A stretch of 64,000 nucleotides of DNA, from the NCBI RefSeq assembly GCF_958301595.1, contig NZ_CATQJU010000001.1, positions 2,294,001-2,358,000 of the forward strand, written 5' to 3'. The position numbers and the translations under genes were made by a program. Of this stretch, positions 6,701 through 58,560 are shown one piece after another; positions within the stretch are counted from its first letter, which is position 1; every line of letters begins with the position of its first letter. The DNA comes from Porphyromonas vaginalis (GTDB lineage Bacteria > Bacteroidota > Bacteroidia > Bacteroidales > Porphyromonadaceae). The notes below the pieces were generated by a model. That model was not told the origin of the DNA and ran no database searches. It saw nothing but the letters and a program-made list of their open reading frames with translations.

Positions 6701-6872
6701 CGTCCCTCCGCTGGGACTTAGCCGTCCCTAGGGTGGGACAAAGAAATCCCTAGGGAGAGGTTTGAACTTTCCAACAGTGGAAAGGAACCTTTCCAGCGTT
6801 GGAAAACTAATTTTCCTCCCTTGGAAATTTTATTTTCCAAGCTCGGAACGGTTTTGGAAAGTTTACATTTCA
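6701..6872. repeat. 22-bp palindrome array 1
   Basis: About eight imperfect palindromes of 18 nt start every 22 bp (6701, 6723, 6745, 6767, 6789, 6811, 6833, 6855), separated by 4-nt spacers. The arms change between units while staying mostly complementary: GTCCC/GGGAC in the first two, then TTTCC/GGAAA. The array sits between two convergent transcription units (GH3 gene and efflux operon). Small open frames across it are artefacts of the repeat. Confidence 0.8.
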
Positions 6873-6910
6873 GCTGGGAGCTACCGCCCCGCTCCCCCAC
6901 AAATACGTAG

Positions 6911-6946
6911 AAAGCGTCAGCCCCGCTCGTGCGAGACTGACGCTTT
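6911..6946 (-). terminator. Hairpin at the end of the efflux operon
   Basis: AAAGCGTCAG pairs with CTGACGCTTT around a 16-nt loop, just downstream of the last efflux gene. The T-run on the minus strand is short, so termination is likely but not certain. Confidence 0.55.
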
Positions 6947-6969
6947 GTGCTGTGCTAGTGCTGTATTCG

Positions 6970-7272
6970 TTAGATCATATCGGTGACCTCCCAGGCGAAG
7001 GCTCTCAGCCCTTGCTTCGGATTGTCTTGGTCGATCTGATGCAGTGCCGCGAGGAGTCGCTCGGCTCGCTCAGCGTCCGTGATAACCATCATAGCACCAT
7101 TGGTCGTTGGCCAGGCGTGGCTACCGAGATGCGGATCGCCCGTTGCGGAGCCACGTCCGTAGACTTCGCTCCACTCGGTATAGCCCTTGGCATTGTGCTG
7201 CTCGAGGGTGCGCAGGACGAGCCCATGCAGGGCACTGTTGTAGACGATGAAGATTGCCTTTTGTCTATTCAT
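6970..7272 (-). CDS. PG0541-like small transporter-associated protein
   Basis: This 100-aa cytosolic protein resembles a PII-like ferredoxin fold (MNRQKAIFIVYNSAL start, central GHP-poor loop, GAMMVITDAERAERLLAALHQ helix). It matches my recollection of the family seen after RND permeases in Porphyromonas and Bacteroides (P. gingivalis PG0541). It begins 3 nt after the permease stop, so it is surely co-translated with it. A role as a small ligand-sensing or accessory subunit of the pump is inferred from position and fold only. Confidence 0.7.
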   Translation of the reverse strand: MNRQKAIFIVYNSALHGLVLRTLEQHNAKGYTEWSEVYGRGSATGDPHLGSHAWPTTNGAMMVITDAERAERLLAALHQIDQDNPKQGLRAFAWEVTDMI

Positions 7273-7275
7273 AGC

Positions 7276-10200
7276 TTAGTGGTGGTTTTTGAGACTTTTC
7301 TTACGCCGACGCCGTATCTGACGGCGAGAGACCAGCGCATAGACACTGGGGATCAGGAGGAGCGTGACCAGCGTCGAGATGGTCAGACCGAAGGCTACCG
7401 TGACACCCATCGGCTGCCACATCTCGCTACCCTGTCCGATGCCGATAGCCATCGGGATCATACCGAAGACGGTCGTGAGGGTCGTCATCAGCACAGGACG
7501 CAGACGCGACGCTCCCGCATGGAGCAGCGCAGTGCGTACAGACATGCCACGCTCACGATTGAGTATGGTGTAGTCGATCAGGACGATACCATTCTTCACC
7601 ACGATACCGACGAGCATAATCGCTCCGATGAAGGCAATGATACTCAGGGGGACACCCGTCACGAGCAAGCCGATGATAACTCCCGTAAAGGCAAAGGGCA
7701 CGGAAAACATGATGACAAACGGGGAGACCAAGCTCTCAAACTCCGCAGCCATCACGATGAAGACTAGGAAGACAATGAGCAGCAGGAGCGTCCCTAAGTC
7801 TGCAAACGCCTCTTGTTGCTGCTCGAAAGCTCCTGTGATCTCGTAGCTCACACCCTCGGGCATATCCATCCCGTCGAGGGTCTTCCGAGCCGTGCGGACG
7901 AGGTCTGAGAGGGCTGCCTTGGGTGCTGGCGTGAGTGCAATGGTGACGACACGAGAGCGGTCTTTCTGGTAAATGGCAGGAGGCGCAAAGTGCTCCACGA
8001 CCTTGCCCAGTTCGCCTAGTCGTACGCTCGTTCCCTGCGGGGTGCGTACGAGTGTCTGAGCGACGTCGTCTAGCGAGCGTCTGAACTCAGGTGCCAGGCG
8101 CACACGGATCTCATACTCCTGCCCATCCTCACGATAGAAGGAGGCGGTGGCTCCGTAAATGCTGTTGCGCAGATAGCTCGCTACCATACTATTGGTCAAG
8201 CCATGCTCGGCGAGGCGCTGCGGGTCGAAGATGACCTGGTACTCAGGCATAAACTCGTCCCGATTGCTCAGAGCCTGAGCACAAGCTGGAGACTTACTAA
8301 TCTCCGCCATAAACGCTTTGGAGATCTGATCGGTGACGGCAAAGTCGTGTCCGTAGATATCAACATTGACAGTGCTTTGCTGTCCCCCGCCACCTGTCTG
8401 AATGGAGACATTGTACTGCTTGATACCAGGCATGACGCTTAGATCACGACGCATCTCGGCAGCAACCTCCTTAGAGGAACGCTTTCGCTCGGAGGCATCA
8501 ACCAACTTGATATTGAAGGAGAGGATATTGTCACCATTATCCTGAGCCAGCGTCGAGGCACCAGACTGAAAAGCATCCGCCTGCCCCGTGGAGAACTGTA
8601 GCATCTCTATCTCGGGGTACTTCTTGTGCCACTCCTCGGTGAGGCGATGCCCCTCAGCGAGCGGGCGATCTATGGTAGTGCCTACGGGGTAGTACGCCTT
8701 GACAAATATATAGCCACCGTCTCCCTGCGGCATGAACTCGGTCTTAACCAGCGAACCGAGTGTGAGCGATAGTGCGAAGATGCCTACGGACAAGCCTACC
8801 GTGAGCCACTTGTGTCGTAATACCCAAGCGAGCGTGCGCTGGTAGAGCACCGTCAGTCGCTGGATGAAGTCGTTGAAGGGGCGTAGGATCTTTTGGGATA
8901 CTTTTCCCTCCTTGCGCTGACGATTGGCTCGTAGCATGTGAGCGCAGAGCGTAGGTGTCAGGGCAAGCGCACAGATGGTCGAGACGATCATCACAATACT
9001 GACGATCCAGCCGAGCTGACGGAAGAGCAGTCCCGCCATGCCCTGCATCATCACCATCGGGAGGAAGACCGCCAGCATCGTCAGCGTAGAGGCGATGACT
9101 GAGAGCGCCACCTCGTTGGTCGCATGGACGGCAGCTTGCTTGGGGTAGCTTCCCCGCTCGATGTGGTTGGTAATATTCTCTAGCACTACGATCGCATCGT
9201 CCACCACCATACCGATGGCTATGGAGAGCGAACTGAGCGAAATAATGTTGAGCGAGTTGCCCGTCAGCAGTAGGTATATGAAGGCCGAGAGCAGCGATAT
9301 CGGGATCGTCAGAACAATGATAAAGGTGGCGCGCCATCGGCCCAGGAAGAGCAGTACGATGAGCATCACGACGCAGAAGGTTATGCCGATCGTCGAGCTC
9401 AGACTATTGATAGAGCGCACGATGAAGTCGCTCTGGTCCATAATCACCTCTATCTTGATGTCCGTGGGGAGGTTCTTAACAATCTGCGGGAGCGCCTTGA
9501 GGACACGCTTATTCACCTGAACCGTGTTGGCACCCGACTGCTTCATCAGCATGAGCATGGCACCCCTCTGGTTGTCCACATAGGCGAGCGTTTGCTGCTC
9601 AGGATCGCCATCTACGACGCTCGCCACGTCTCGCAGATAGATGGTCCGGCCAGCGAAGCTCGTTATGGGTAGCTCCTCTAGCTGCTTCGGGTCAACGATC
9701 TCACCGATAGCTCGGAGGGAGATTTTACTCGTTTCTAGGTTCATCGACCCAGCCGAGATGTTGCGGTTTGCGACCGCAATGAGGTTGCTCACATCACTGA
9801 CCGTGATGCCGTAGCTCTCGAGCTTGTGCGGGTCGCAGTAGACGTTGATCTGTCGTTGTCTAGCACCTAGTAGGTTGACGCCCCCCACCCCGTCAATGCG
9901 TCCTAGAGGGGTTATCAACTGATCATTTAGGATTTTGTAGAGCGACTTAGAGCTAGCGTCCGACTTGATCGAGAGCATGAGGATAGGCAGGTCATCCATG
10001 CCAAACTTGATAATGTTTGGCGTGCCAGCCCCGTCGGGGAGCACCTCGGTGATAGCACTGATCTTATCGCGAGTATCGTTGATCGCATTCTCTATGTCCA
10101 GTCCCTCTCTGAGCTCCAGCGTGACGACAGAGACATTCTCTTTGCTTTGCGAGGTAATGTGCTTGACTCCGTTGATACCGTTGAGGACGTTTTGGATTGG

Positions 10201-10395
10201 CTTGGTAATGTTGTTCTCCACTTCTTCAGGAGCGGCTCCAGAGTAAGAAGTGACGACCATGACCCGATTGATCTGCATATCGGGCAGGAGATCTATCGGC
10301 AGGCGTGTCAAGGCAAAAAGGCCCAAGACGACCACCCCGACGAAAATCATGATCGTGGTGACAGGACGACGTACGGCTGATTGATAAAGACTCAT
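7276..10395 (-). CDS. RND efflux permease (AcrB/MexB-like)
   Basis: This 1039-aa inner-membrane proton/drug antiporter is the usual length for the family. The N-terminal TM1 (TTIMIFVGVVVLGLFALTRLP) precedes the porter domain. TM4 carries the proton-relay acidic pair in IAIGMVVDDAIVVLEN (about residues 395-410). The second half repeats the fold and ends in a basic tail. It pumps compounds from the inner membrane/periplasm through the TolC partner. It is the third gene of a minus-strand operon, TolC - membrane fusion protein - permease - PG0541-like. The layout resembles P. gingivalis PG0538-PG0541 (XepCAB). The substrates cannot be read from sequence. Confidence 0.95.
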   Translation of the reverse strand: MSLYQSAVRRPVTTIMIFVGVVVLGLFALTRLPIDLLPDMQINRVMVVTSYSGAAPEEVENNITKPIQNVLNGINGVKHITSQSKENVSVVTLELREGLDIENAINDTRDKISAITEVLPDGAGTPNIIKFGMDDLPILMLSIKSDASSKSLYKILNDQLITPLGRIDGVGGVNLLGARQRQINVYCDPHKLESYGITVSDVSNLIAVANRNISAGSMNLETSKISLRAIGEIVDPKQLEELPITSFAGRTIYLRDVASVVDGDPEQQTLAYVDNQRGAMLMLMKQSGANTVQVNKRVLKALPQIVKNLPTDIKIEVIMDQSDFIVRSINSLSSTIGITFCVVMLIVLLFLGRWRATFIIVLTIPISLLSAFIYLLLTGNSLNIISLSSLSIAIGMVVDDAIVVLENITNHIERGSYPKQAAVHATNEVALSVIASTLTMLAVFLPMVMMQGMAGLLFRQLGWIVSIVMIVSTICALALTPTLCAHMLRANRQRKEGKVSQKILRPFNDFIQRLTVLYQRTLAWVLRHKWLTVGLSVGIFALSLTLGSLVKTEFMPQGDGGYIFVKAYYPVGTTIDRPLAEGHRLTEEWHKKYPEIEMLQFSTGQADAFQSGASTLAQDNGDNILSFNIKLVDASERKRSSKEVAAEMRRDLSVMPGIKQYNVSIQTGGGGQQSTVNVDIYGHDFAVTDQISKAFMAEISKSPACAQALSNRDEFMPEYQVIFDPQRLAEHGLTNSMVASYLRNSIYGATASFYREDGQEYEIRVRLAPEFRRSLDDVAQTLVRTPQGTSVRLGELGKVVEHFAPPAIYQKDRSRVVTIALTPAPKAALSDLVRTARKTLDGMDMPEGVSYEITGAFEQQQEAFADLGTLLLLIVFLVFIVMAAEFESLVSPFVIMFSVPFAFTGVIIGLLVTGVPLSIIAFIGAIMLVGIVVKNGIVLIDYTILNRERGMSVRTALLHAGASRLRPVLMTTLTTVFGMIPMAIGIGQGSEMWQPMGVTVAFGLTISTLVTLLLIPSVYALVSRRQIRRRRKKSLKNHH

Positions 10396-10429
10396 AAGCT
10401 AAAGGCGAGGATCTGTGTGTTGGGAGAGA

Positions 10430-11482: not shown

Positions 11483-11517
11483 AGGATATTGTTTTGGCTT
11501 AATAGGATATATGGCGT

Positions 11518-12969: not shown

Positions 12970-13341
12970 ATATAATAAGGTGTGTAGCGAACCCCTCTCC
13001 AGAGCGAGGAAGCCCCAGTCGGATCCTTCAAGAATACCAACTTAGAGACGAATAGGACTTTTTCGTTTAATCCAGCAACGACCTTTCGATGCTTCCGTAT
13101 GAACCGCCAACCGCCACTAGGAGACTTCAGTCTGCTCCACCATTAAATATACTTGAGACCAGGGCTGACGCATTATATACAATGAGCTTATCTACCTCTC
13201 GACTCCTCGCTTGTCGCTCATCTGTAGCTCCTGACAAAGCGATTATGATGCGTCAGCCATCTCTGGGTAAATTCGACACTGACTTGTTACAATAATTTAG
13301 AGCAGACTACATATCGAAACGGCGCTATGTCGGGGAAAAGT

Positions 13342-13510
13342 GATTTCCACGTGGATATTTCAAAATCTCCACGTGGAGAATAAAAAATTCCTCGGAGGAA
13401 TGAAATGAAACTTCGGAAGAATCAAATGAAACTTCGGAGGAAATGAATCACGCCCACGTGGAAAATAAAAAATATCCACGTGGAGATTTGAGATTCCCCA
13501 CGTGGATACT
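13342..13510. repeat. 22-bp palindrome array inside composite 1
   Basis: Eight dyads are spaced by 21-22 bp. Five have the perfect core CCACGTGG (13347, 13369, 13454, 13476, 13498) and three have TTCGGA/CTCGGAGG cores, with A/T-rich spacers. The geometry matches the free-standing arrays at 6701, 41020, 46581 and 58432. Confidence 0.8.
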
Positions 13511-13618
13511 CGAGAAAGGAGAGAATCGGACAAGTTTCCCCGTAAAGATATGTTATTAGAGATTGGAGGTTAGAGATTAGAGGGCAGGGGTGACACATTA
13601 TATTATAATGACCTCATG

Positions 13619-13791
13619 AGACGATTGCATAAAGGCGAATCGCTGTGTTGCTTTCGGGATTCGGCTTCGGTCACATACGGAGGTATGCTCCCGTCAGACC
13701 TCACCCTCAGCGCTTTGCGCTTCATCCTTTCTGCAAAGTCTGGACAATCTTGCAAGCAAGATTGTGAGACTGTTGACTTTTGCAATAGTCT
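13619..13791. mobile_element. 173-bp MITE-like element (family 2), copy 2, nested in composite 1
   Basis: This is the reverse complement of the 3483-3655 copy, with the same length and many shared blocks. Its ends are AGACGATTGCA and TGCAATAGTCT, each with one change from copy 1. It interrupts the right cap of the composite element, so it arrived later than the composite. Confidence 0.75.
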
Positions 13792-13886
13792 TCTCACCTA
13801 TTCCTTGCTTTGTCGCTCATCTGTAGCCCCTGACAGAGCGATTATAATGCGTCAGCCCTGAGTTAGCCATTCAAAAAGAAATACAC

Positions 13887-13894: not shown

Positions 13895-13908
13895 CCTGCA
13901 CTATCTCA

Positions 13909-18725: not shown

Positions 18726-18819
18726 ATGCCTCAGCCCTGACTGGGGAAATTCAACGCCGACTCGTTACAATAATTTAGAGCTGACAACGTATCGATACGA
18801 TACTGTGTCGGGGAAAAGT

Positions 18820-18995
18820 GATTTCCACGTGGATATTTCGAAATATCCAGGTGGAGAATTTTTATTTTCCACGTGGGGAATAAAAAATTCTTCGGAGGAA
18901 TCAAATGAAACTTCGGAAGAAATGAATCACGCCCACGTGGAAAATAAAAAATATCCACGTGGAGATTTGAGATTTTCCACGTGGATATTCGAGAA
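18820..18995. repeat. 22-bp palindrome array inside composite 2
   Basis: CCACGTGG-type dyads recur at 22-bp spacing (18825, 18847 as CCAGGTGG, 18869), then two TTCGGA dyads, then three CCACGTGG dyads with the last at 18977. Confidence 0.78.
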
Positions 18996-19222
18996 AGGAG
19001 GGGATCGGACGAATTTTCCTGTAAAGATATGTAAAGCAGGATTAGAGGTTAGAAGTTAGAGATTAGAGATCAGATCACTCTGATAGCTCCGATAGCTCCG
19101 ATAGCTCCAATCACTCCAGCTAACAGCCAACAGCCAATCCATGGCAGGACACATTATATATATAGCACTCATCTATGCCTCGCTTGTCCTTATGTGTGGC
19201 TCCTGAGAGAGCGATTATCATG

Positions 19223-27162: not shown

Positions 27163-27163
27163 A

Positions 27164-27203
27164 GTTTCATACCTATGGCACTGGAGTTTCATACCTATGA
27201 AAC
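27164..27203. repeat. Short 22-bp palindrome array (2 units)
   Basis: GTTTCATACCTATGGCAC (27164) and GTTTCATACCTATGAAAC (27186) are separated by TGGA. The first unit has mismatched arms (GTTTC with GGCAC), combining the two arm types seen at 58432-58560. Confidence 0.65.
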
Positions 27204-27441
27204 TATACTCTCCTCACAGACGTTGCTAAAGTTGCCCTAATTGATCTTCCCTTGGGCGGAGGCGGGGCAGGGCTGACGCATTATAATAATGAGTTCATCC
27301 AAACCCCGCTTGTCGCTCATGTGTAGCTCCTGCAAGAGCGATTATGATGCGTCAGACCTATTTGGGCAAAATTAGACGCTGGCTCGTTGCAATAATTTGG
27401 AACTGGTTACATATTGAGACGGCGCAGTGTCGGGGAAAAGT

Positions 27442-27590
27442 GATCCTCACGTGGATATTTCGAAATCCCCACGTGGAGAATAAAAAATTCCTCGGAAGAA
27501 TGAAATGAAACTTCGGAAGAAATGATTCGCCTCCACGTGGAAAAAGAAAAATATCCACGTGGAGATTTGAGATTCCCCACGTGGATATTC
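27442..27590. repeat. 22-bp palindrome array inside composite 3
   Basis: The dyad series resembles composites 1 and 2: CACGTGGA and CCACGTGG cores near 27447, 27469, 27534, 27556 and 27578, with CTCGGAAG and TTCGGA dyads between them. Confidence 0.75.
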
Positions 27591-27696
27591 GAGAAAGGAG
27601 GGAATCGAACGAATTTCCCCGTAAAGATATGTAAATAGAGATTAGAGGTTAGAGGTCTCGGAGTGAATCGGAACAATCGGAGGGATTGGAGCGATA

Positions 27697-36879: not shown

Positions 36880-39800
36880 ATGACTCGTCTCTTGACCCGA
36901 TGGCGACAATTGCTCGTCCTCACCCTCTTACTGCTTTGTAGCGTAGGCACTCTATCCGCACGCCCCTTAAGTGAGCGTCAGGCTCGACACCTAGCCGAGC
37001 AATTCTTCCTCCAGTCGACTCGCACGACCATGTCTCGTCCCATATCACAGCAGGGACTACAGCTCGTCTCAGCACCTGTACGAGACGCTAAAGGCTTGCA
37101 ACTACGCTCACTCACTGGCGAGGAGGCTCGCTACTATTACATATACAATAGAGGTAGCAATGAGGGCTTCGTCATCATCGCTGGCGATGACGAGCTGACA
37201 CCTTATATAGGATACGCCACTACGGGGCGGTTCATCGTAGAGGATATGCCCGAGCAACTAGCCGCTTTTCTCAAGGCATGCCAAGAGCGTATCGATGAGC
37301 TAGTCTCTAGTATCAGCTATCATCAGGCACTACAGCCGACACGCCCCAGAGCCTCCGAGCCGACACAGATTGCTCCTCTACTGGGAAACATACAGTGGAA
37401 TCAGAGTGCCCCTTGGAATAATCAGACACCCGTCGTCGATGGTGAGCATACACCCGTAGGTTGTGTCGCAATCGCCTATACACAAGTGATGCGCTACTAC
37501 CAGTGGCCTACACAAGGCGAGGGAACCTTCTCCTATACAGAAAAAAGAAGTGACCGCCAGCATAGTGTAGACTACGAGTCTACTACGTATGACTGGGCGC
37601 ACATGCCTGAGCGGTATGCTGATCCATCACAAGCCACCGAAGAGGAGACCAACGCGCTCTCGACGCTTGCTTACCATGCTGGCGTTGCTGTTGAGATGAT
37701 GTACGCACCTCGTGGCAGTGGAGCTTCTATGCCCTATGTAGACCGTGCTTTACGCGAACACTTTCGCTACGACAAGCGCGTGAGCTTCAAGAACCGAGTA
37801 AACTATACGCAGGCTACCTGGGAGCAGCTACTACGTAATGAGTTAATTGCCGCTCGCCCTATTGTCTATAGTGGCTATGGTCATGGTGGTCACGCCTTTG
37901 TCTGTGATGGGTATGATGCGAATGGTCTCTTTCACATCAACTGGGGCTGGGGAGGCATGAGCGATGGCTACTTCAACCTCAACTACCTGGTTCCTTCAGA
38001 TCTAGGCATCGGTGGTGGTGCTGGTGGTGGCTATAGCCTAGGGCAGGGAGCGGTCGTCGGGATTATGCCTGATCGTCAGGGCACCTCGCAGCGACCGGAG
38101 TCTTCCGTAGTCACCACGTGGCGCTTCAGTATGCTCTTTGACAAAGGCACACTAGATGCCACAGCAGACTACATAGTAGCTCTCGTAGACGATGCAACCC
38201 CATACGATGACCTCATTACCTATGGTGTCACACGCCTAGGCTCTACCGATACGACTTACCTCGATCAGTACGCACGCAACGCTCATATAGAGAGCCTCTA
38301 TCTGTCTGACACTATTACATCTCAAAAGCTCCAACTCAGTGGCTATATAAACGAGGGTACGTGGGACTTCTTCCTCGCCTATCGAGCTAAAGACGTAGCT
38401 GGTACTGCTTCTTGGAGACCTTGTGGGCAGCATGAGCGTGCTAAGGATCAGTATCGTCGCACCTTTACCATCTCACGAGAGGGCGATGGCTCCTATACAG
38501 CTACTGAAGATGCTAGTGCTAATCAACCTAAGCTAGAGCTCGTCGCTGGATCTGCTCAGAGCAAGATCGCAGGCTATGAGAAGAGCCAAGTCTCCCTCCA
38601 GCTGCGGAATACAGGACGTGTCGAGTACTTTGAGCAGTTATACCTCTTCGCCCGTAAGTCTGGCGAAAAGATGTTTCAACCGCTCCTCAATCTCCTTCCA
38701 GCCATTGAGGCTGGTGGTCAGAAACGTATGACCTTTGACATAGAGCGCTTCCCCTATGGTTCAGGATATGTAGAGCTACTGGTTGGCTATTTCGAGGGAG
38801 AGCGCTTTACCCCCCTCTGGTCTAATACGGTCTCCGTCCAGCCAGCGACCGATATACGCACGGCTTACGTCCTCTCATCGGATCAGCCCGTCACGGCCAA
38901 CCTATCTACTGGAGCCCTCTCGCAGATACGCATACGCAATGTCGGGACGACAACGGCTCCTTTGCAAGGAGACCTCTACTATCGCTGGGAACTTAGCAAG
39001 GGCGACAACAAAGCTTCATCAGAGTGGACAACGATAACTCCTATCTCAGCTGGAGGCGAAGCCACCTTCACACCTAATCTAGAGCGCGAGCTTCAGAAAG
39101 TCAATGCTCAGGAAGGCGATGAGATTACGCTCACAGCGACCTTTGTAGTGCTTTACAATGAGGGAAAGTCTTACAGCTACATCCCTTTGCTAGAGCAGGG
39201 CTCACTAGCAGTCACCTGTACGAAAGACCGCATCATCGGCGACGGCATCATCACGATGACCACGACGAAACTAGTCGGAGAGACGATTCAGCTAGGTTAC
39301 GAGGCAGACAAAGATGTCTCCGTTGAGGGGGCTGAGCTGATAGATGATTCAGAGCGGTTCATGCGACGATACAGAGTCACCAATCAGCAAATAACTCTGC
39401 GTGGAAATATCACAGCATTATTTTGTTTTACACAGGGATTGACTGATATAGATGTTTCCCAGTGTAGCTCCTTAAGCGAACTTTACTGCTTTGCCAACGA
39501 AATCAAGGGGAAGTCAATGCTACAACTGGTCAATAGCTTACCTGATCGTACAGGACTAAAGAATGGCACCTTAGTTGTCTACTCAGATGGCTCTCTCGGG
39601 GCAGAAGGCAATGTGTGTCTGAAAAGCGATGTCGCCATAGCTAGGGCGAAGAATTGGGACGTAAGACAACTGGTGAAATATAATGAACTAGAGTTACACC
39701 CCTACGACGGCGAGGACCCGACAAAGACCTTTGCCGTAACACTGACTCAGGGCGACAATGGATCCATCTCAGCCACCGGCGCAGACGATCTTAATGCCGT

Positions 39801-40947
39801 ACTAGAGGGTACCGAGCTAACCATCACAGATCACCCCGACGAAGACTACCTACTAGTCGCTCTGACGGCCAACGGCGAAGACATCCTAGTAACGAAGAAG
39901 CTGAGCGTCCGGGAAGACTCTGAGATCAAGGCGACCTTTGCGAAGAAGAGCTATACCGTGACATTCTCGACGGAAGGCGAAGGCGAAAACAAGCTCACAG
40001 CTACTAGAAATGGGGAGCCCTTTACCTCTGGAAGCCCAGCTCATGAAGGCGACAAGATCGTCATCACAGCTCAGCCTGCTGAGGGGTACCAGATAGACAA
40101 GTGGCTCGTTGGCAAGGAAGAGATAGAGTTCACTCCCTATACGGGTCAGACGACCTTCGAGTGTACCGTCGGCACGGCAGATGTTTTAATCAAGGCGACC
40201 TTTGCGAAGAAGAGCTATACTGTGACATTCTCGACGGAAAGCGAAGGCGAAAACAAGCTCACAGCTACTAGAAATGGGGAGCCCTTTACCTCTGGAAGCC
40301 CAGCTCATGAAGGCGACAAGATCGTCATCACAGCTCAGCCTGCTGAGGGGTACCAGATAGACAAGTGGCTCATTGGCAAGGAAGAGATAGAGTTCACTCC
40401 CTATACGGGTCAGACGACCTTCGAGTGTACCGTCGGCACGGCAGATGTTTTAATCAAGGCAACCTTTGCGAAGAAGACCTACCCTGTGACACTGGCATAC
40501 AATGAACATGGGACAATTTCCATCGTGGAGCCTGTGGACCTAGAGACAGTGCCATACGGTACGACTCTGACGGTCCAGGCTACGGGCAAAAATGCACAGT
40601 GCGAGCTGACCGCTCTGACAGCCAACGGCGAAGATATCCTAAGCTCTAAGAAATTCACCGTCAAAGAAGCCACCGAAGTGCAGGCAACCTTCGTAGACCA
40701 TACGAGTGTAGAGACAATCGCTGGGAACGCCGTCCGTATCTATCCGAATCCAGCACAGACGTTTGTCCTGATCGAGGGCTTGCAACCAGCTAGCCAGGTC
40801 TCGCTCTACAGTATGGATGGCAAGCAGCTGTACACGGGTCAGACAGACCAGCAAGGGACTCTGCGAATTGACCTAACCGCTCTGAGCGATGGTGTCTACC
40901 TCCTCGTAGGTGAGGGGTGGCAAAAGCGTTTAGTCGTCAAGCAATAG
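36880..40947 (+). CDS. C10-family (streptopain/PrtT-like) cysteine protease with T9SS sorting domain
   Basis: This 1355-aa secreted protease has a signal peptide (about 1-27), a Spi-like propeptide (about 30-150), then the C10 domain. The catalytic Cys is probably 195 (TPVGCVAIAYTQVMRYY) and His 338 (GYGHGGHAFVCDGYD), with the following INWGWGG motif. After beta-rich regions there is a short LRR-like block (about 840-930), then InlB-type beta-grasp repeats, of which two 88-aa units (about 1018-1193) are nearly identical. A type A C-terminal sorting domain ends the protein (VRIYPNPAQTFVLIEG ... RLVVKQ). Export by T9SS and a role in host-protein degradation are inferred. Confidence 0.9.
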   Translation: MTRLLTRWRQLLVLTLLLLCSVGTLSARPLSERQARHLAEQFFLQSTRTTMSRPISQQGLQLVSAPVRDAKGLQLRSLTGEEARYYYIYNRGSNEGFVIIAGDDELTPYIGYATTGRFIVEDMPEQLAAFLKACQERIDELVSSISYHQALQPTRPRASEPTQIAPLLGNIQWNQSAPWNNQTPVVDGEHTPVGCVAIAYTQVMRYYQWPTQGEGTFSYTEKRSDRQHSVDYESTTYDWAHMPERYADPSQATEEETNALSTLAYHAGVAVEMMYAPRGSGASMPYVDRALREHFRYDKRVSFKNRVNYTQATWEQLLRNELIAARPIVYSGYGHGGHAFVCDGYDANGLFHINWGWGGMSDGYFNLNYLVPSDLGIGGGAGGGYSLGQGAVVGIMPDRQGTSQRPESSVVTTWRFSMLFDKGTLDATADYIVALVDDATPYDDLITYGVTRLGSTDTTYLDQYARNAHIESLYLSDTITSQKLQLSGYINEGTWDFFLAYRAKDVAGTASWRPCGQHERAKDQYRRTFTISREGDGSYTATEDASANQPKLELVAGSAQSKIAGYEKSQVSLQLRNTGRVEYFEQLYLFARKSGEKMFQPLLNLLPAIEAGGQKRMTFDIERFPYGSGYVELLVGYFEGERFTPLWSNTVSVQPATDIRTAYVLSSDQPVTANLSTGALSQIRIRNVGTTTAPLQGDLYYRWELSKGDNKASSEWTTITPISAGGEATFTPNLERELQKVNAQEGDEITLTATFVVLYNEGKSYSYIPLLEQGSLAVTCTKDRIIGDGIITMTTTKLVGETIQLGYEADKDVSVEGAELIDDSERFMRRYRVTNQQITLRGNITALFCFTQGLTDIDVSQCSSLSELYCFANEIKGKSMLQLVNSLPDRTGLKNGTLVVYSDGSLGAEGNVCLKSDVAIARAKNWDVRQLVKYNELELHPYDGEDPTKTFAVTLTQGDNGSISATGADDLNAVLEGTELTITDHPDEDYLLVALTANGEDILVTKKLSVREDSEIKATFAKKSYTVTFSTEGEGENKLTATRNGEPFTSGSPAHEGDKIVITAQPAEGYQIDKWLVGKEEIEFTPYTGQTTFECTVGTADVLIKATFAKKSYTVTFSTESEGENKLTATRNGEPFTSGSPAHEGDKIVITAQPAEGYQIDKWLIGKEEIEFTPYTGQTTFECTVGTADVLIKATFAKKTYPVTLAYNEHGTISIVEPVDLETVPYGTTLTVQATGKNAQCELTALTANGEDILSSKKFTVKEATEVQATFVDHTSVETIAGNAVRIYPNPAQTFVLIEGLQPASQVSLYSMDGKQLYTGQTDQQGTLRIDLTALSDGVYLLVGEGWQKRLVVKQ
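39931..40458 (+). repeat. Two nearly identical 264-bp in-frame tandem repeats in the C10 protease gene
   Basis: Units at 39931-40194 and 40195-40458 differ at only a few bases. Each encodes 88 residues beginning ATFAKKSYTVTFST. The first 24 bp of a third, divergent unit follow at 40459. Confidence 0.9.
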
Positions 40948-41020: not shown

Positions 41021-41125
41021 GTCCTCCCACTTGGCACTGCAGTTTCTCCTAGAGGAAACTGGAGTTTCTTCCGCATGAAACTGGAGTTTCTTCCGCATGA
41101 AACTGGAGTTTCACCCCTATGAAAC
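41020..41125. repeat. 22-bp palindrome array 4
   Basis: 18-nt dyads start at 41042, 41064, 41086 and 41108 (GTTTCTTCCGCATGAAAC type, TGGA spacers), preceded by a degenerate unit at 41020 ending TTGGCAC. The array lies exactly between the terminators of two convergent genes. Confidence 0.8.
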
Positions 41126-41126
41126 T

Positions 41127-46525: not shown

Positions 46526-46580
46526 CACTTTGAGGACAAAGCACCTCACCCATCGAGTCGCTCCCGCAGTTTTCCAAAAA

Positions 46581-46796
46581 CTTTCCAGCCTTGGAAAAAT
46601 AAATTTCCAACGCTGGAAACTTTCTTTTCCTCCCTTGGAAACTTTCTTTTCCACCCTTGGAAATTTCCTTTTCCACCGTTGGAAAAGAAAAATCCCCACG
46701 TAGGGATCGCAGAGTTCCTCCCTTGGAACTAAAGAGTTCCTCCGTTGGAACTAAAAAGTTCCAAGAGGGGAACTATTTTTGGAACTCGTATATACT
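46581..46796. repeat. 22-bp palindrome array 5 (longest)
   Basis: Nine complete 18-nt dyads start at 46581, 46603, 46625, 46647, 46669, 46691, 46713, 46735 and 46757, with a partial tenth at 46779. All are spaced exactly 22 bp with 4-nt spacers. Arms are TTTCC/GGAAA in units 1-5, ATCCC/GGGAT in unit 6 and GTTCC/GGAAC in units 7-9, so base changes are paired. The array lies upstream of mazG. Confidence 0.88.
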
Positions 46797-46894
46797 ACTA
46801 TATCAAACCGATACGAATGACACTGACGACAGCCTACGCTATGAGCGCACACGGATCAGGCTTAGCAGGAGGACGAGCAGTCTGTCATCGATGC

Positions 46895-52396: not shown

Positions 52397-52422
52397 GTGG
52401 CGTGCTACTATATATGGTGTCT

Positions 52423-55400
52423 CTAGAAATCAAGCTTCTTGCGTCCACAGATTGTCCTGTAGTTGCATTCATTGCAAATGTTCTGTACGGAGGTTTGGTA
52501 AAAGTGATTCTTAGGGTTTACTAGCTGGTTCAAGTATTCTAATACGATCTTTCTGATTACGTCTAGATCTTTGGGACTTTCAAAGTATATCGCCCCTTCG
52601 CTAGCCGGCACAGCGGGAGCCAACGAGTAGAGCGTAGGCTGCACCTCATGGATTCCGCCATTTACCTTCTGGATTCCACCCTTTACCTCCTGAGCATAGA
52701 GCAAGGCGTAGAGATAAGACTGTAGCATGTAACCGCCTAGCTTGTAGTTGTTTTCCTGAAAGCGCCAGCTTGTTAGCGTATCGGAGTCTAGTTTCTTTAG
52801 TTTCTTAGGCTGCTTGATGATCCCTGTCTTGTAGTCTACGATGCGACAGACACCTCCACAGACTTTGTCCACTCGGTCGGGCTGAGCAGTCATGTGTATC
52901 GTATGCTCGTCCCACTCGAAGGTGACGTTCATCATCTTCGTCTCACTGGCCAGCAGCTGGAGCGTGCCACTCTCCCCGAGCAAGAGGCGGTCTATCTCTA
53001 GAGCCTTGTAGATGTATCGCTCCAGGTCTGTCAGGAGGATTTCGTCGGGGGCACTCTTGTCAGAGACGATCTCTTTATAGATGTCTGTCAGCATCTGGCG
53101 AGAGACCTTGTGCTCGAGCTGATCTCGAGTTATGACGTCTCCAGGCTTCTGCACCAGTCCTTTGTAAAACAGCTCTAGATACTCATGCACTATCGAGCCC
53201 AACTCTATCTGTGTCACCACTCCAGGCTCAGGTCGTGGCTCGCCGACACCCTTTATCTTCTTAAGGTAAAACTGGTAAGGGCACTTGTAGTAAGTGATCA
53301 GGTCAGATGGAGAGAAGGTCCTCTTGCCTGAAGCCAACTGCGCTATGTAGCGACGCACCTCCTCATCTTGACCCGTGATCTGGGGCACCATCTCGTCTCT
53401 CGCCTCCAGTGGGTCTGCATAAGCGGACTCTTGGGGCTTTAAGTTTGTCAAGTAGCGTATCTGATCCACATAGCGCGAAGGCTCCATCGAGGAGATGCTC
53501 TTAGGACGAGTATCTTGGAGTAGATAAACTTCCTTAGCGCCCTGTATGAGGCGATAGAAGTGGTAAGCATTGGTGTCATCTTCCGTACGGTAAGTGGTCA
53601 TACCGAAGGCTCTTCGTAGCATATCGGGGATCAGCGTCGTCGTATGGCTCGACTTAGGCAGATCACCCTCCTGCACATTGAGCATGATCACATAGTCAAA
53701 GGTGAGCGTACGGGTCTCCAAGAAGCCCATCACCTGCAAGCCCTCTAGCGGAGCTCCCTCGAAGGGTATACTCCCCACAGCCAACAGTTGCTCCAAGAGG
53801 TAGGCGACATGCATCGGTGTGTCTAGCAGATGCCGAACACCGTCGCGCGCTGTTAGCAGGTTAGACACCTGTGTGGCATAGCGAACTATCTGGTCGCGTG
53901 CCTCCGAGAGGATTACTTGATCTATCGGCTCCTCAGCAGCTTCGTCCTCCTCTTCCTCTGGTGCTGACGAGCTCTCTTTGATCAGCTCTAGCAGTTGACC
54001 AACACGACCGAGTAGCTCTTTACCAGTAAAGCTAGGTGTGAGTATCTCTAGGAGAGGCTGTCGTATCGCCTCATCAGCATCTTTCGTAAGCTCCTCGATG
54101 ATCTCACGAAGCTCCGATGCTTTGATGGCATAGTGATGGAGAGCTATCTGCTCCATCAGGGTAGTCGTCAGCTCACCAAAGAGCTTGCGCGTCAAGGGGG
54201 CTGCCAGCCAAAGTTGCAAGCGTGAGCAGGTGAGCTTGACACGAGTTAGCTCTCTATCTGAGGGACTCACGAGCCCGAAGATGTTTAGGTATCTACGTAT
54301 CCAAGTCGCGACAGAGGTGTACTGGAGGGGGTAGCCCATCGTCACGTTGAGCGATGTGCAGGTCGGCTGCTTGAGCGACTTCATCAGAGGGATGAGCGTT
54401 TTCTCATCGTTGAGGACGATCGCTATGCGTAGCTCTTCGAGTGCTTTAGGATCGCGCTCGATGATCTCGTCGATGAGACTATTGACCACTTGTGGCTGGA
54501 GAATGGTTGAGTTGAGCGAGAGGAGATGGATCTCTGGCGAATGCCCACGAGCCTCTTCTCCGTCTATGACCTCACCTCCGTCTATGACCTCACCTCCGAG
54601 AAGATTGACGTTTTGCTCGATCGTACGGTAGAGATGATTTGTAAATTCGTCTGTAGCGTCTAGCGAGACTTTCTGCCAGTAAAACTGCACCTTGAGCGCA
54701 TCAGCATCGGCTGTCCGTAGCTTCTTGATGATCTCCTGCTCCGCTGGCGTCAGGTTGTAAAGTCCCACGAAGGAGACCAAGCTGATCTTCGAGCCACTAT
54801 GGCGACGTAGCTCTCTGAGTAGATCATCATCAGTAAAGTCTCGCTCCGCAACGAGCCTATAAGCTGCTGCTCGGTATGCCACTCCGAGCTCGGTCAAACG
54901 TGCATTAAATCGCTTATAAATCTCTCTCCAGACGATGGAGAAGTGGAGATACTCTGCGCCGTGCGCTTTTTTGAAAAAGTCTTTAGGCAGTGTGGTCCAA
55001 AACTTTTGGATTGCGTCGCGCTCCTCTTCTGTTAGGAACTCGTAGTCATCAAAAGCATCTAGCTCCTCGAGATTTCCCAAGAGCATCTCCACATGCGCCA
55101 GGGCAAGATCCATATCTTGGAAGTCTCGTAGCATGCGCTCCGTCTGACTCAGGCGAAGCATCTGATCTGTCTCCGTCTGCGCCTCGCCCTGCTCCGCCAG
55201 ATAAGCTGCGTAGACCTCGTAGAGTATCGATATGAGTGCTGTGTTGTCTAGGATGACCCGCCCACTCATCTCAGTGATCCACTCGTCGATGGTGACTATG
55301 CGAGGCAGGATAGTGGCAGCATCGGCCAGTTGCGCGATGAGCTCACGCTGTAAGAATGTGCCAGCACGCTTTGTCGGCACCACCACCAGCTGCTCTCTCA

Positions 55401-55464
55401 GCGGTGTGTCACTATTGCGCAGTTGCCTGACGACCTGCGAGAGAAAGTTGTCACTAGAGTCCAT
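52423..55464 (-). CDS. AddB-like PD-(D/E)XK nuclease / helicase-family protein
   Basis: This 1013-aa protein resembles the AddB subunit of AddAB recombination nucleases. The C-terminal part (about 730-1013) has a RecB-type nuclease: a conserved His in GSIVHEYLEL, Asp in QPDRVDKV, and DYK in CRIVDYKTG. Four Cys typical of the AddB iron-sulfur staple are present, one in YYKCPYQFYLKKI and three in CNECNYRTICG. The N-terminal half is an inactivated helicase region. AddAB processes double-strand breaks for RecA. No AddA-like gene is next to it in this window. Two short in-frame duplications are visible (54557-54592, and near 52661-52690). Confidence 0.88.
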   Translation of the reverse strand: MDSSDNFLSQVVRQLRNSDTPLREQLVVVPTKRAGTFLQRELIAQLADAATILPRIVTIDEWITEMSGRVILDNTALISILYEVYAAYLAEQGEAQTETDQMLRLSQTERMLRDFQDMDLALAHVEMLLGNLEELDAFDDYEFLTEEERDAIQKFWTTLPKDFFKKAHGAEYLHFSIVWREIYKRFNARLTELGVAYRAAAYRLVAERDFTDDDLLRELRRHSGSKISLVSFVGLYNLTPAEQEIIKKLRTADADALKVQFYWQKVSLDATDEFTNHLYRTIEQNVNLLGGEVIDGGEVIDGEEARGHSPEIHLLSLNSTILQPQVVNSLIDEIIERDPKALEELRIAIVLNDEKTLIPLMKSLKQPTCTSLNVTMGYPLQYTSVATWIRRYLNIFGLVSPSDRELTRVKLTCSRLQLWLAAPLTRKLFGELTTTLMEQIALHHYAIKASELREIIEELTKDADEAIRQPLLEILTPSFTGKELLGRVGQLLELIKESSSAPEEEEDEAAEEPIDQVILSEARDQIVRYATQVSNLLTARDGVRHLLDTPMHVAYLLEQLLAVGSIPFEGAPLEGLQVMGFLETRTLTFDYVIMLNVQEGDLPKSSHTTTLIPDMLRRAFGMTTYRTEDDTNAYHFYRLIQGAKEVYLLQDTRPKSISSMEPSRYVDQIRYLTNLKPQESAYADPLEARDEMVPQITGQDEEVRRYIAQLASGKRTFSPSDLITYYKCPYQFYLKKIKGVGEPRPEPGVVTQIELGSIVHEYLELFYKGLVQKPGDVITRDQLEHKVSRQMLTDIYKEIVSDKSAPDEILLTDLERYIYKALEIDRLLLGESGTLQLLASETKMMNVTFEWDEHTIHMTAQPDRVDKVCGGVCRIVDYKTGIIKQPKKLKKLDSDTLTSWRFQENNYKLGGYMLQSYLYALLYAQEVKGGIQKVNGGIHEVQPTLYSLAPAVPASEGAIYFESPKDLDVIRKIVLEYLNQLVNPKNHFYQTSVQNICNECNYRTICGRKKLDF
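54557..54592 (-). repeat. In-frame 18-bp tandem repeat in the AddB-like gene
   Basis: Two consecutive copies of an 18-bp unit encode GGEVID twice. The number is a multiple of three, so copy changes would lengthen a loop without shifting the frame. Confidence 0.75.
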
Positions 55465-56143
55465 AGATACCCAAGACTAAAAGGTTATTACACATGTGTA
55501 GCGCGACCGATGGCCAGAGCGAACCTGTAGCCCAGCGCAGGTAACCCAGCAAGAGGGCCAGAAAGAAGATCTGTAGCATCCCCACGGGGTTGAGGTGCAT
55601 CACGGCAAAAAGTAGTGCGGGCAGGAGGATAACACTCCAGCGTGGGAAGCGTCTCAGCATCATCCACCCCATGAGTGCCCCTCGGAAGAAGAGTTCCTCA
55701 GCAATCGGCGTCAGCACCCCGACGATGAGGAGAGACCACCCTATATTCGACTCCCCGATGAGCGTCGTCTGCGCCTCCTCGACCATCTTACTCCAGTTGC
55801 GTAGCCACGCACCGCCCCACCCCTCTGGCCATACGGAGACGAGTGCTTGATTGCTCCATGCGAGGAACAGATAGATAGCCACAGCAAGGATTGCGTAGAG
55901 GAGGAAGCGTGGCAGCCTCACCCCCTTTAAGTATTGTCTGAGCGGTTCGAGTGGCAGGGCTAGCAGTTCATAAGGCTCCTGCGGGGCTGGCTGATGGTAG
56001 AGTCTTTGGTAGCCCCATAGGTAAGTCCATGTGGCAAGTAGCGCACTGCCTCCGAAGGCGATGACTCCCACCCAGGAGACTGGGAGCAGTGGGTACGCCA
56101 GCACAAAGAGGATTAAGGAGTATAGGAGCAGTAAGACCAGCAT
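55454..56143 (-). CDS. CPBP-family intramembrane metalloprotease
   Basis: This 229-aa polytopic membrane protein has about six membrane segments. The CPBP/CAAX-protease motifs are complete: the catalytic double Glu in PIAEELFFRGALMG (about 148-161), then His in FAVMHLNPVG and the HMCNN box near the end. Bacterial members act in prenyl-protein processing, bacteriocin maturation or immunity; the substrate here is unknown. Its end overlaps the AddB-like gene by 11 nt. Its start shares one base with the stop of the upstream barrel gene. Confidence 0.9.
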   Translation of the reverse strand: MLVLLLLYSLILFVLAYPLLPVSWVGVIAFGGSALLATWTYLWGYQRLYHQPAPQEPYELLALPLEPLRQYLKGVRLPRFLLYAILAVAIYLFLAWSNQALVSVWPEGWGGAWLRNWSKMVEEAQTTLIGESNIGWSLLIVGVLTPIAEELFFRGALMGWMMLRRFPRWSVILLPALLFAVMHLNPVGMLQIFFLALLLGYLRWATGSLWPSVALHMCNNLLVLGIYGL

Positions 56144-56820
56144 CAGCGCACCTTAAAGTAATAGCCCAGCCCCACCGTGACGCCCAGCTCGCCCGCACGG
56201 CCATAGTCATCGCGCACGGTCGTGGCAAAGATGTCGCTCAGACCGTAGTAGAAGTGTCCGCTCAGCGTGATCCTATGCCTCTGAGCTATGTCTAGGCTCA
56301 TGACGGGACCGCCTTTGAGACCCCACGAGAACTTGCTAAAGAGCGGATAGACATGTCGTCTCTTGACGACGGATCGCGTCTCTTCGCTCGGCGTAGGGCT
56401 GCTCACATCTCGTATGATGTAGCCCACACTTGGTCCCACCTCTAGTCCCAGCTGAAACGTACCAAAGGGATAGTAGAGGTGTGCCATCAGCGTCAAGTCT
56501 ATGAAGTCCATATCTCTTGCGAAGCTGTAGGCGATCGGCTTCGTATACTCCTCTCGCCATCCACGCTGCTCGTAAGAGAGACGCATCGTCATGCCCGTAT
56601 ATTTCTGATTGGTCAGCAGCACCCCCACGTAGCCCATAGCACCTAGGTGAGGTAGCATCTCCACGCGAGGCACTAGGTCGAGCATCGATCCACTCACACC
56701 ACCACCACCTCCTATGCGCACCTCTAGAGGCTTCAGCTGGGAGCGCTGAGCCTGTGCGGGGAGTATGGTGCAGAGGAGTGTGAGGAGCAGTCCGCTCCAC
56801 CATTTCATCAAGCTTAGCAT
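56143..56820 (-). CDS. PorT/OmpW-like small outer-membrane barrel protein
   Basis: This 225-aa protein has a signal peptide (cleavage near PAQAQ) and about eight amphipathic strands with repeated Gly and aromatic residues (VRIGGGGGVSGSMLDL, GMTMRLSYEQRGW, FIDLTLMAHLYYPFGTFQLGLEVGPSVGYIIRD, GVTVGLGYYFKVR). The pattern matches the outer-membrane beta-barrel families named after PorT in Bacteroidota. PorT itself is required for T9SS in P. gingivalis, but many relatives have other roles, so only the barrel fold is claimed. It lies between the LysM gene and the CPBP gene. Confidence 0.72.
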   Translation of the reverse strand: MLSLMKWWSGLLLTLLCTILPAQAQRSQLKPLEVRIGGGGGVSGSMLDLVPRVEMLPHLGAMGYVGVLLTNQKYTGMTMRLSYEQRGWREEYTKPIAYSFARDMDFIDLTLMAHLYYPFGTFQLGLEVGPSVGYIIRDVSSPTPSEETRSVVKRRHVYPLFSKFSWGLKGGPVMSLDIAQRHRITLSGHFYYGLSDIFATTVRDDYGRAGELGVTVGLGYYFKVR

Positions 56821-56829
56821 AGTGCTGAT

Positions 56830-58353
56830 CTACTCTGACAGAGGGATCTGCTGACGCTGCACCCCCCGTGGACTATAAGTGATGAAGAAGAGGTTCAAGT
56901 TCGTGTAGCCCCCTCTCCCAGAGCTACGCCCCGTGATGGCTGGTGCAAAGAGGAAGCCCGACTGCAGACCATCGCTAGGCAGCTGATGCTGGTACTGCTG
57001 GAAGCCCCGTCCATACGACGAGAGAGCCGATATAAAGTAGCGCACCACGTCGTACCCCAGCAAGGCATAGCTTGGATAGCCCTCCTCTATATCACGTCCG
57101 TACCAATGCTTGTAAGATTCCCGGACTTGCTGACTCTCGGGTAGCTCCCGATCCCAGTAAAAGGTGGAAAAGATCGTAGCCCCTACCGCTTGCAGACGTT
57201 CATCTATATTCTTGCCATAGGTTTGCCACTGCGGATATCCGAAGAGCTGATAGTCACTCGTCGAGAGCTGCGCATCACGCATCGCATCCAGTACAGCCGT
57301 AAGGTCCGCCTTCTTGCTTGAGTTGAGCAGGATCACACACTTCTTACCACCCTGGCGAGGCCACTGCCCGACAGCTAGCTCTCGCAGAGAGCGGCTTTGC
57401 GTGGAGATACCCGCCTCTCGGCAGGCTGTCTCGATCGCCTTAAACTTGTCCGCCTGATCGCCCTCGCCACAGCGCACGAGTAGCACTTCGTAGTCCGCAT
57501 AACGCTCTACAAAGGCTTGCTGCAGTCTCTCCGTGACACGATACTGTGCGGGGTTGAGCTGGAAGAAGTGGTCGTACAGCTGCCCCTTACCGCTCTGCCA
57601 TACAAAGGGCGAGAGGTAGACCGCCTGTTGCACCTTGGCGCGCTGAGCTAGTAGCTCCACGCTCTGCTCTGAGTCACCACCGATGATCAGGTCGTACCGC
57701 TCGCCCTCCTTGCTCTTGAGGAGCTGCTCGAGTGCCGAGCGATTGACGGCTGCATCGACTTGTAGATCAATGCTCACGCCCTGACGCTGCAAACGCTCGA
57801 TACCTAGGAGTACACCCTCGTAAAAGTGCAGATAGCGACTAGGCTGCCCACTCTCTCGCAGAGGAAGTATCAGGGCCACCCGCACTTGCGCTATCTGAGT
57901 ACCATTCAGCGGGCTGGGCTCCTTCTTAAGCTTAGCTCCAGAGGCTACTACGATCCGCTCCCCTACTGCGATCTGCGCATCATGCTTCTGCGGGTTTAGC
58001 TCGAGGAGCTGGCCCATTGTCAAGCCATACTTACGACTAATGCCGAAGAGCGTCTCGCCGGACTGCACCACGTGAATGCCTGGCTCAGCCTGCACGACGG
58101 CTGGTGCCTCGACATAGATTGTGTCAGGCTTGCGCTGGGGTATCAGGAGCGTCTGTCCCTCACGAATGCCCCACTGACTGCCCTCATTAAGCCGGTAGAT
58201 CTCCTCTTCGGAGACTCCGTAGCGCTTGGAGATAGCGTAGACCGTCTCCAACTTCTTGACCACATGCCGTAGAGGCGCCTGTGCCATGAGCGAGGTCGTG
58301 ATTAGGAGCAGGCTCATGCAGAGCAAGAGAATACGCTGTAATATCTGTTTCAT
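56830..58353 (-). CDS. LysM-domain protein with periplasmic-binding-protein-like domain
   Basis: This 507-aa exported protein has a signal peptide (about 1-27), then two LysM modules (HVVKKLETVYAISKRYGVSEEEIYRLN at about 30-75, and HVVQSGETLFGISRKYGLTMGQLLELN at about 93-140) that bind peptidoglycan. From about residue 160 a type I periplasmic-binding fold follows (VRVALILPLRESGQPSRYLHFYEGVLLGIERL ... YDLIIGGDSEQSVELLAQ). It may be a wall-tethered sensor or scaffold; no ligand is known. The start is MKQILQR at 58353; the frame runs further upstream but crosses the promoter. Confidence 0.85.
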   Translation of the reverse strand: MKQILQRILLLCMSLLLITTSLMAQAPLRHVVKKLETVYAISKRYGVSEEEIYRLNEGSQWGIREGQTLLIPQRKPDTIYVEAPAVVQAEPGIHVVQSGETLFGISRKYGLTMGQLLELNPQKHDAQIAVGERIVVASGAKLKKEPSPLNGTQIAQVRVALILPLRESGQPSRYLHFYEGVLLGIERLQRQGVSIDLQVDAAVNRSALEQLLKSKEGERYDLIIGGDSEQSVELLAQRAKVQQAVYLSPFVWQSGKGQLYDHFFQLNPAQYRVTERLQQAFVERYADYEVLLVRCGEGDQADKFKAIETACREAGISTQSRSLRELAVGQWPRQGGKKCVILLNSSKKADLTAVLDAMRDAQLSTSDYQLFGYPQWQTYGKNIDERLQAVGATIFSTFYWDRELPESQQVRESYKHWYGRDIEEGYPSYALLGYDVVRYFISALSSYGRGFQQYQHQLPSDGLQSGFLFAPAITGRSSGRGGYTNLNLFFITYSPRGVQRQQIPLSE

Positions 58354-58378
58354 CGGTTTATCTCTCTTTTTACTTAGA

Positions 58379-58409
58379 CAAAGGTAGCATAAATAGCACT
58401 CTTGGTCAA
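58379..58409 (-). promoter_or_regulatory. Promoter of the LysM-led gene series
   Basis: On the minus strand: TTG (58409-58407), 20-nt spacer, TACCTTTG (58386-58379), 26 nt before the ATG. Confidence 0.72.
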
Positions 58410-58431
58410 CCGTTCTCCCCAAGAGATTTTA

Positions 58432-58560
58432 GTTTCATAGGTAGGAAACTTTAGTTTCATACGGAGGAAACTCCAGTTTCATACGGAGGAAACTCCAGTT
58501 TCATACGGGTGAAACTGGAGTGCCAAAGGGGGGTGGCACTAGAGTTTCACCCGATGGAAC
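58432..58560. repeat. 22-bp palindrome array 6
   Basis: Dyads start at 58432, 58454, 58476 and 58498 (GTTTCATACGGAGGAAAC type), then GTGCC...GGCAC at 58520 (20 nt, both arms changed together), then GTTTCACCC...GGAAC at 58544. It lies just upstream of the LysM gene promoter. Confidence 0.82.

Follow-up and report, generated by a model that had tools for sequence, protein, structure and literature searches.

Palindromes on a 22-bp lattice in Porphyromonas: dispersed intergenic arrays that may serve as tandem sites for a DNA-binding dimer

Short repeats about two helical turns apart that are cooperatively bound by one protein are known from iterons and partition-site arrays. Most of these are direct repeats at one locus beside their own gene, whereas the repeats considered here are palindromes dispersed over a chromosome. 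They were noticed in a 64,000-nucleotide stretch of Porphyromonas vaginalis, hereafter the window (contig NZ_CATQJU010000001.1 of assembly GCF_958301595.1, positions 2,294,001 to 2,358,000; G000:C1:2294001-2358000 in our numbering, where G000 is the 2.52-Mb genome of the window and L-numbers are stretches or loci of various genomes). Palindromes (dyads) standing in rows between genes at a spacing of 22 bp are confirmed as a real feature of this Porphyromonas. The reading that fits them best, which we hold with about even confidence, is that they are tandem sites for a dimeric DNA-binding protein, and that they behave like repetitive extragenic palindromes (REPs) and bacterial interspersed mosaic elements (BIMEs) without a REP-associated tyrosine transposase (RAYT). 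Among the papers listed in our literature searches, no title or abstract opening describes 22-bp palindrome arrays in Porphyromonas or Bacteroidales.

REPs are described as targets of the IS3-family elements IS1397 and ISKpn1 (PMC1525189), and BIMEs and REPs as binding IHF, DNA polymerase I and gyrase (PMC2817692). Like them, the arrays are dispersed, intergenic, palindromic, clustered, high in copy number and targeted by insertion sequences (IS); they differ in their rigid 22-bp lattice, their short arms (5-7 bp) and half-sites conserved by position. A REP system with its RAYT was considered and ruled out, because the Y1 transposase profile PF01797 has no match in G000 at E ≤ 0.001, while the same profile matches 5 of 14 control genomes. 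Moreover, the aligned units show, by inspection, no constant GTAG or CGTC tetranucleotide at the base of the palindrome, the tag of the REP families in PMC3733652. For want of the transposase and, as far as inspection goes, of the tag, the arrays do not belong to the REPs, but the statement that they work like REP/BIME stands.

Within the genus, the BrickBuilt elements of P. gingivalis have the same layout of leader, short tandem repeats and tail, and are likewise intergenic. They are reported to have a 23-nt unit, an IS5-like terminal inverted repeat (TIR), which reads GAGACCTTTGCA in several copies (PMC4596501). The arrays have a 22-bp unit and other ends, with neither the 23-nt unit nor the IS5-like TIR, so that the relation to BrickBuilt suggested in the earlier note has to be given up: this is a different repeat. 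BrickBuilt matches in BLAST at default settings are stated to occur only in P. gingivalis, with homologues in P. gulae; the main text of that paper contains neither 'palindrom-' nor 'hairpin', and it mentions 22-nt tandem repeats for strain W83 without positions (PMC4596501). Short repeats of 3-31 bp were left unannotated in another account (PMC5771137). PINSR of Prevotella intermedia, compared here by its published description, is also an intergenic repeat: it is described as 188 bp long, present in 177-184 copies and without TIRs, with about three-quarters of its sites conserved between two strains, and its authors link it to rearrangement (PMC4755523).

The lattice was scanned for with perfect 5-bp arms and a fixed centre-to-centre spacing, a chain being at least three dyads. 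Over periods 14-39, the window holds 8 chains at period 22, 5 at period 33 (an alias, 22 + 11) and none at the other 24 periods, and 20 dinucleotide shuffles of the window gave one chain altogether at periods 21-22. The same period recurs elsewhere in the genome, its absence there having been named in the earlier note as counting against the whole proposal: in 800 kb, taken as 40 stretches of 20 kb at even intervals and scanned at periods 12-60, we found 20 chains at 22, 23 at 33, 17 at 44 and 9 at 55. No other period had more than two, so only multiples of 11 are prominent, and one shuffle of this sample gave no chain at 22. The pattern KTTCC-N6-GGAAM-N6-KTTCC-N6-GGAAM has 147 matches on one strand of G000 and is present in 10 of 26 Porphyromonas genomes, whereas its reversed form matches neither G000 nor any of the 26. 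All 19 arrays of the G000 sample are intergenic once open reading frames (ORFs) of less than 1100 bp overlapping an array are discarded; before this step, 4 of 20 sat within ORFs of 92-332 aa.

The geometry is rigid. Steps were measured between successive NTYCC..GGRAN dyads with 14-32 bp allowed. Those of exactly 22 bp number 122 of 124 in the G000 DNA analysed, 55 of 55 in G001 (2,186,370 bp; which we take to be P. asaccharolytica DSM 20707), 39 of 39 in P. uenonis DSM 23387 (G024), 13 of 13 in G006 (2,354,886 bp; presumably P. gingivalis ATCC 33277) and 7 of 7 in G004. A step of 22 bp, with 21 bp in a few places, had been proposed; the former is borne out and the latter is far rarer, the two exceptions in G000 measuring 21.5 bp and flanking one unit with a 5-nt centre. 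Of the 124 NTYCC-class dyads of G000, 123 have a centre of 6 nt. Despite the exact spacing, adjacent units of G000 differ at 5.7 of 22 sites (about 26%). Intergenic alignments (40 end-to-end alignments from 274 queries, 9184 bases) gave 0.092 indels per substitution, and hence, on this rough calibration, about 0.5 indel per step would be expected, and units evolving neutrally would frequently lose their register.

When centred, the arm classes share the core half-site T-Y-C-N8-G-R-A. In 29 three-unit sequences, chosen among arrays found by pairing (L103 and L245:17017, of other classes, were dropped as the aligner had shifted them), T(-7):A and C(-5):G are invariant, and positions -8 (T:A, G:C, A:T) and -6 (T:A, C:G) co-vary. 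Cells changed on both sides number 59 against 21.2 in shuffled data, with none of 500 shuffles as high, and of the five covariation measures three lie above every shuffle. A first count of 16 compensated changes against 10 was biased to pairs, the arrays having been found by pairing, and is superseded by a test in which units were detected by the left arm only. There, position -8 is paired in 674 of 792 units against 547.5 (standard deviation 8.8, maximum 581) in 1000 within-array shuffles of the right arm, and position -6 in 756 of 792 against 707.5 (standard deviation 4.9, maximum 725). Where the -8 base departs from the array majority (166 units), 110 units are compensated and 56 are not; as both strands were read and many units share descent, these are not independent events. 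The claim that both arms change together beyond chance is thereby upheld for the outer arm bases.

Orthologous units give the view over shorter times. Among 38 unit pairs that could be aligned, from 11 loci (unaligned units, 20 of 58 own and 7 of 45 from relatives, were dropped), the centre changed at 37 of 228 positions, the spacer at 34 of 228 and the arms at 6 of 380; since the unit finder fixes four of the ten arm positions and also requires four of five pairs, the fairer figure for the arms is 6 of 228, at positions that the finder does not fix. On short time scales the arms are therefore kept by sequence, and paired replacement is slower. Symmetry and spacing had been described as conserved but sequence as not; the first part agrees with our data, in which dyads and spacing look constrained and the geometry is common to arm classes and lineages, while the second is too strong, because the classes share a core half-site and the arms hardly change between species while centre and spacer do. 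Further arm classes seen on the 22-bp lattice are AATAGTA/TACTATT (L245:17019-17101, G006), ATAGAC/GTCTAT (L103:18781-18884, G000) and ATTTTC/GAAAAT (L110:5505-5598, P. uenonis 60-3, G025).

The covariance-model search proposed earlier was run on genus and order genomes. A three-dyad model matches 15 of 26 Porphyromonas genomes, and with a stricter filter 9 of 247 genomes of the order; six of these nine lie beyond Porphyromonas and represent five families. The lattice is found again in other families of Bacteroidales, in part with arms of unrelated sequence. An arm-agnostic scan of 300 kb of G084, from another family, gave 13 chains at 22, 7 at 33 and at most one at other periods, about half of its stretches having been picked at known arrays; seven of the eight G084 arrays shown have four dyads, and several have additional half-sites outside. 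By comparison, 464 kb of other Bacteroidota gave one chain at 22, and 991 kb of Gammaproteobacteria two at 22 and 1-7 at most other periods. A free-linker pattern (period 19-25 bp) matches 23 of 393 order genomes, and both-strand matches outside the genus, among those listed, step 22 bp in G084, G129, G228, G298 and G300 and 21 bp in G131; in G210 a single 22-bp match was seen, confined to one strand.

The reversed control of this pattern unexpectedly matched other genomes; eight of them were then searched directly and, as was bound to happen, gave matches, with AAAG..CTTT dyads. At these loci, chains have period 22 in G388, G054, G395 and G385 and period 21 in G042 and G169; G055 gives a mixture, and G066 has no fixed-period chain although its matches mostly step 22 bp. 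Stop-free frames run over the arrays of G169 (333 codons), G042 (121 codons) and G066 (267 codons), which may be coding repeats; the 22-bp matches of G066 were accordingly not relied on. The 21-bp matches of G344, G079 and others lie on one strand only and were rejected, as were those of G169 and G042, where the stop-free frames make coding repeats likely. In addition, three IMG/VR contigs classed as viral (L362, L366 and L368) have dyads at 22 bp, of the classes TTTCAAC/GTTGAAA, GTTTTCCAC/GTGGAAAAC and GAAAC/GTTTC.

On the reading as tandem protein sites, each 22-bp unit would be bound, in double-stranded form, by a dimer of a putative sequence-specific DNA-binding protein; the two half-sites of the unit (core T-Y-C and G-R-A; extended TTTCC, GTTCC or GTTTC) are opposed across a centre of fixed length. 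Units about two helical turns apart could let neighbouring dimers touch and form a cooperative nucleoprotein row which, by arithmetic at 10.5 bp per turn, would wind slowly, by about 34 degrees per unit. The arrays are intergenic and dispersed, vary in unit number between species, carry additional half-sites at their ends and receive an IS with IS3-type ORFs; in these respects they behave like REP/BIME. We further suggest, tentatively and with less confidence than for the reading itself, that such arrays are patchy order-wide nucleoprotein platforms of Bacteroidales, in which half-sites diverged (TTTC/GAAA, AAAAG/CTTTT and others) while the two-turn geometry stayed fixed. By analogy with what has been proposed for BIMEs, these platforms may organise the chromosome or handle supercoiling. 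If the 22-bp step is indeed kept across families while the letters change, it would mark an arrangement of protein on DNA that has been conserved in an order to which major bacteria of the gut and the mouth belong.

Several observations weigh against this reading. No protein was identified for the arrays. Nine of 12 arrays fold better as RNA than their shuffles (z -3.3 to -10.3). Eleven of the 26 genus genomes lack a match to the three-dyad model, and 200 kb each of G012 and G017 contain no 22-bp chain, which together indicate that the system is not essential in the genus. Symmetric arrays also occur at 21 bp, both in the order (G131, which counts against a strict rule of 22) and outside it, where the both-strand matches among 198 genomes of the class step 21 bp (G512 and G598). 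Of the covariation measures, pairs with a change on both sides show little excess (9 against 6.8 shuffled; 31 of 500 shuffles) and further pair types none (21 against 21.5; 342 of 500), and all six arm changes between close species are one-sided, none being two-sided. Finally, if a single protein accepts either T or G at -8, paired changes there would hardly be expected; two paralogues, or descent from a small number of ancestral unit types, would have to be assumed.

Another explanation, which we regard as rather unlikely though it survives best among the rivals, is that the arrays are the body of miniature, non-autonomous transposable elements whose dyads are transposase sites. It would account for the 67 BLAST matches of one array in G000 and for the polar ends: 27 of 30 matches of the B-end motif share an imperfect hairpin (about TCGTATcGTGCTGattccGTAGCACATACGA) ahead of GTTCCAAAAA, and 14 of 24 matches of the A-end motif read about GTTTTCCAAAAAC next to an array, both judged by eye, with the remaining three and ten set aside as chance-like. 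TTCCAAAAA is common to both ends, each of which has an additional half-site 11-12 bp outside the first dyad, and the sequences farther out diverge. In G006, moreover, six of the eight arrays shown are embedded in a longer element whose leader and tail are conserved. However, one or both ends are absent in many copies, G084 arrays have no visible shared flank except additional half-sites, and, as noted above, G000 has no Y1 transposase. Both flanks of 12 of 40 distinct G000 arrays were found in relatives' DNA, and an array is there at all 12 loci, often with another length, without a single empty site; the relatives' DNA was mostly fetched at their arrays, which makes this comparison biased and silent on loss. 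At one of these loci, the window array at 46582, presence in G024 rests on direct view, the computed interval being negative as the flanks overlapped. Several arrays of G001 and G024 have two flanks that map to different places in G000 (arrays with such flanks are L220, L224, L225, L233, L237 and L238), as would be expected of possible rearrangement points, and arrays may underlie rearrangements between species.

It is improbable, in our view, that the arrays work as tandem stem-loops of RNA or single-stranded DNA in transcription termination, RNA stability or template pausing. The paired arm changes would suit this explanation, and so would the folding excess (z -3.3 to -7.5 for four window arrays and -3.8 to -10.3 for five others), although such an excess is what dyads give in any case. 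Nevertheless, the lengths of centre and linker are fixed, which stem-loops do not need, and three arrays of the AAAAG/CTTTT class with the same geometry have no folding excess (z 0.07, 0.56 and 0.07). Rfam at gathering scores found only a tRNA in the window and nothing at the array sites. A simple scan for a hairpin followed by T on the 3' sides between gene and array gave few terminator-like hairpins (3/28 in the G000 sample; 3/28, 3/24, 1/29, 1/14, 0/4 and 0/6 over six sets), and terminators were set aside. Rejected also was a general rule of enrichment at convergent gene ends, which holds in the G000 sample (10 of 19 arrays against 19% of intergenic length, p 0.001) but fails elsewhere (8/25 in G001, p 0.11; 2 of 12 placed in G024, p 0.20; 0/6 in G006; 0/8 in G084). 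Tolerance of G-U pairs was uninformative as a test for RNA: mismatches among 116 interior units were G.T in 5, A.C in 3 and others in 13, and the G-U counts of the left-arm-only set mirror each other as both strands were read. Of the three roles proposed for the dyads in the earlier note, binding sites hence fit best, and RNA hairpins and cruciforms fit poorly, given the fixed 6-nt centre of the NTYCC class and the three CTTTT arrays that fold no better than shuffles.

Slightly less probable still are neutral minisatellites, in which a 22-bp unit would be tandemly duplicated and template switching at quasi-palindromes would equalise the arms, without any function. Array lengths that differ between species by 22 bp (L033/L217 and L036/L256) or 44 bp (L032/L213) in the clearest cases agree with this, as does the block structure (a TTTCC block, then a GTTCC block), which indicates shared descent of units. 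The deficit of indels, the arms that change far less than centre and spacer, and the occurrence of this period in other families whose arms are unrelated all speak against it.

Eight sites in the window had been presented as arrays of one design. This holds for five variable arrays, starting at 6702, 27163, 41041, 46582 and 58431 (no strand assigned), while the remaining three, first placed at 13342, 18820 and 27442, are copies of one dispersed element of about 316 bp that start at 13330, 18760 and 27425. The array at 6702..6862 lies between convergent genes, has GTCCC, ATCCC and TTTCC dyads on the 22-bp lattice and terminates in ...GGTTTTGGAAA. At 27163..27205 there is, by eye, a short array of two GTTTC-class units, the first with a GGCAC right arm. 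Four GTTTC-N8-GAAAC dyads occupy 41041..41126, again with convergent genes on either side. The array at 46582..46774 has nine consecutive dyads at exactly 22 bp (TTTCC five times, ATCCC once and GTTCC three times), preceded by its A-end (46570..46581, TTTTCCAAAAAC, with an additional half-site 11 bp outside the first dyad) and followed by its B-end (46776..46818, TTTTTGGAACTCGTAT... and the imperfect hairpin common to many copies). The array at 58431..58560 combines GTTTC dyads with one GTGCC/GGCAC unit and has kept its position in P. uenonis DSM 23387. Close to it, on the minus strand at 58379-58411 and upstream of a LysM gene, lies TTGACC..TACCTTTG, which is promoter-like by the Bacteroidetes-type consensus.

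The element copies, all on the plus strand, are found at 13330..13560 (CACGTGG / CCTCGGAGG dyads centred at 13350.5, 13372.5 and 13394), 18760..19075 (the query of our genome search) and 27425..27620. From 228 first-look candidates, 40 nearly full-length matches were scored in G000, query included, with 85-100% identity. The consensus has dyads at 126.5/148.5 and 255.5/277.5, 22 bp apart within each pair, and steps of 22 and about 21.5 bp are seen in the element. TTAGAG-like heptamer repeats directly follow the right end in the window (19040-19074, 13555-13583 and 27636-27656) and are also present in the consensus of 30 copies.

An IS with HTH_Tnp_1 and rve ORFs (126 and 351 aa) in an IS3-type layout, exemplified by the copy at L101:10157-11729, lands at these palindromes. 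Full-length copies number 11 in G000 and 8 in G001, a set of 19 that leaves out seven half copies and the fragments that are all G024 has; 18 of the 19 have a 3-bp target duplication. Reading their flanks by eye placed 12 copies within the ~316-bp elements and 3 within dyad arrays; a B-end holds 1 more, 2 lie immediately beyond the end of an array, and the last is elsewhere. In all, 18 of 19 are in or beside palindrome elements, of which the arrays make up 2126 of 864,000 sampled bases and 32 starts of the ~316-bp element add roughly another 1%. The palindrome elements explain where an abundant IS lands. That the arrays persist mainly because this IS targets palindromes and so spares genes is the least probable of the explanations weighed, since for all these insertions it explains neither the spacing nor the arm conservation, and the support is weaker in an automatic test, which asked for a dyad whose outer run has at least 5 pairs and that starts exactly at the duplication: 4 of 19 copies have one, against 1.6% of random positions.

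Two further observations concern the surrounding DNA. Positions 39925-40452 of the window hold two tandem 264-bp copies, 99% identical, within a C10-type peptidase gene with a Por secretion tail (36880-40947). Among the 40 stretches of 20 kb scanned in G000, L108 (G000:C1:2430001-2450000) has a GC skew of about -0.32 across 20 kb, the other 39 ranging from -0.09 to 0.07.

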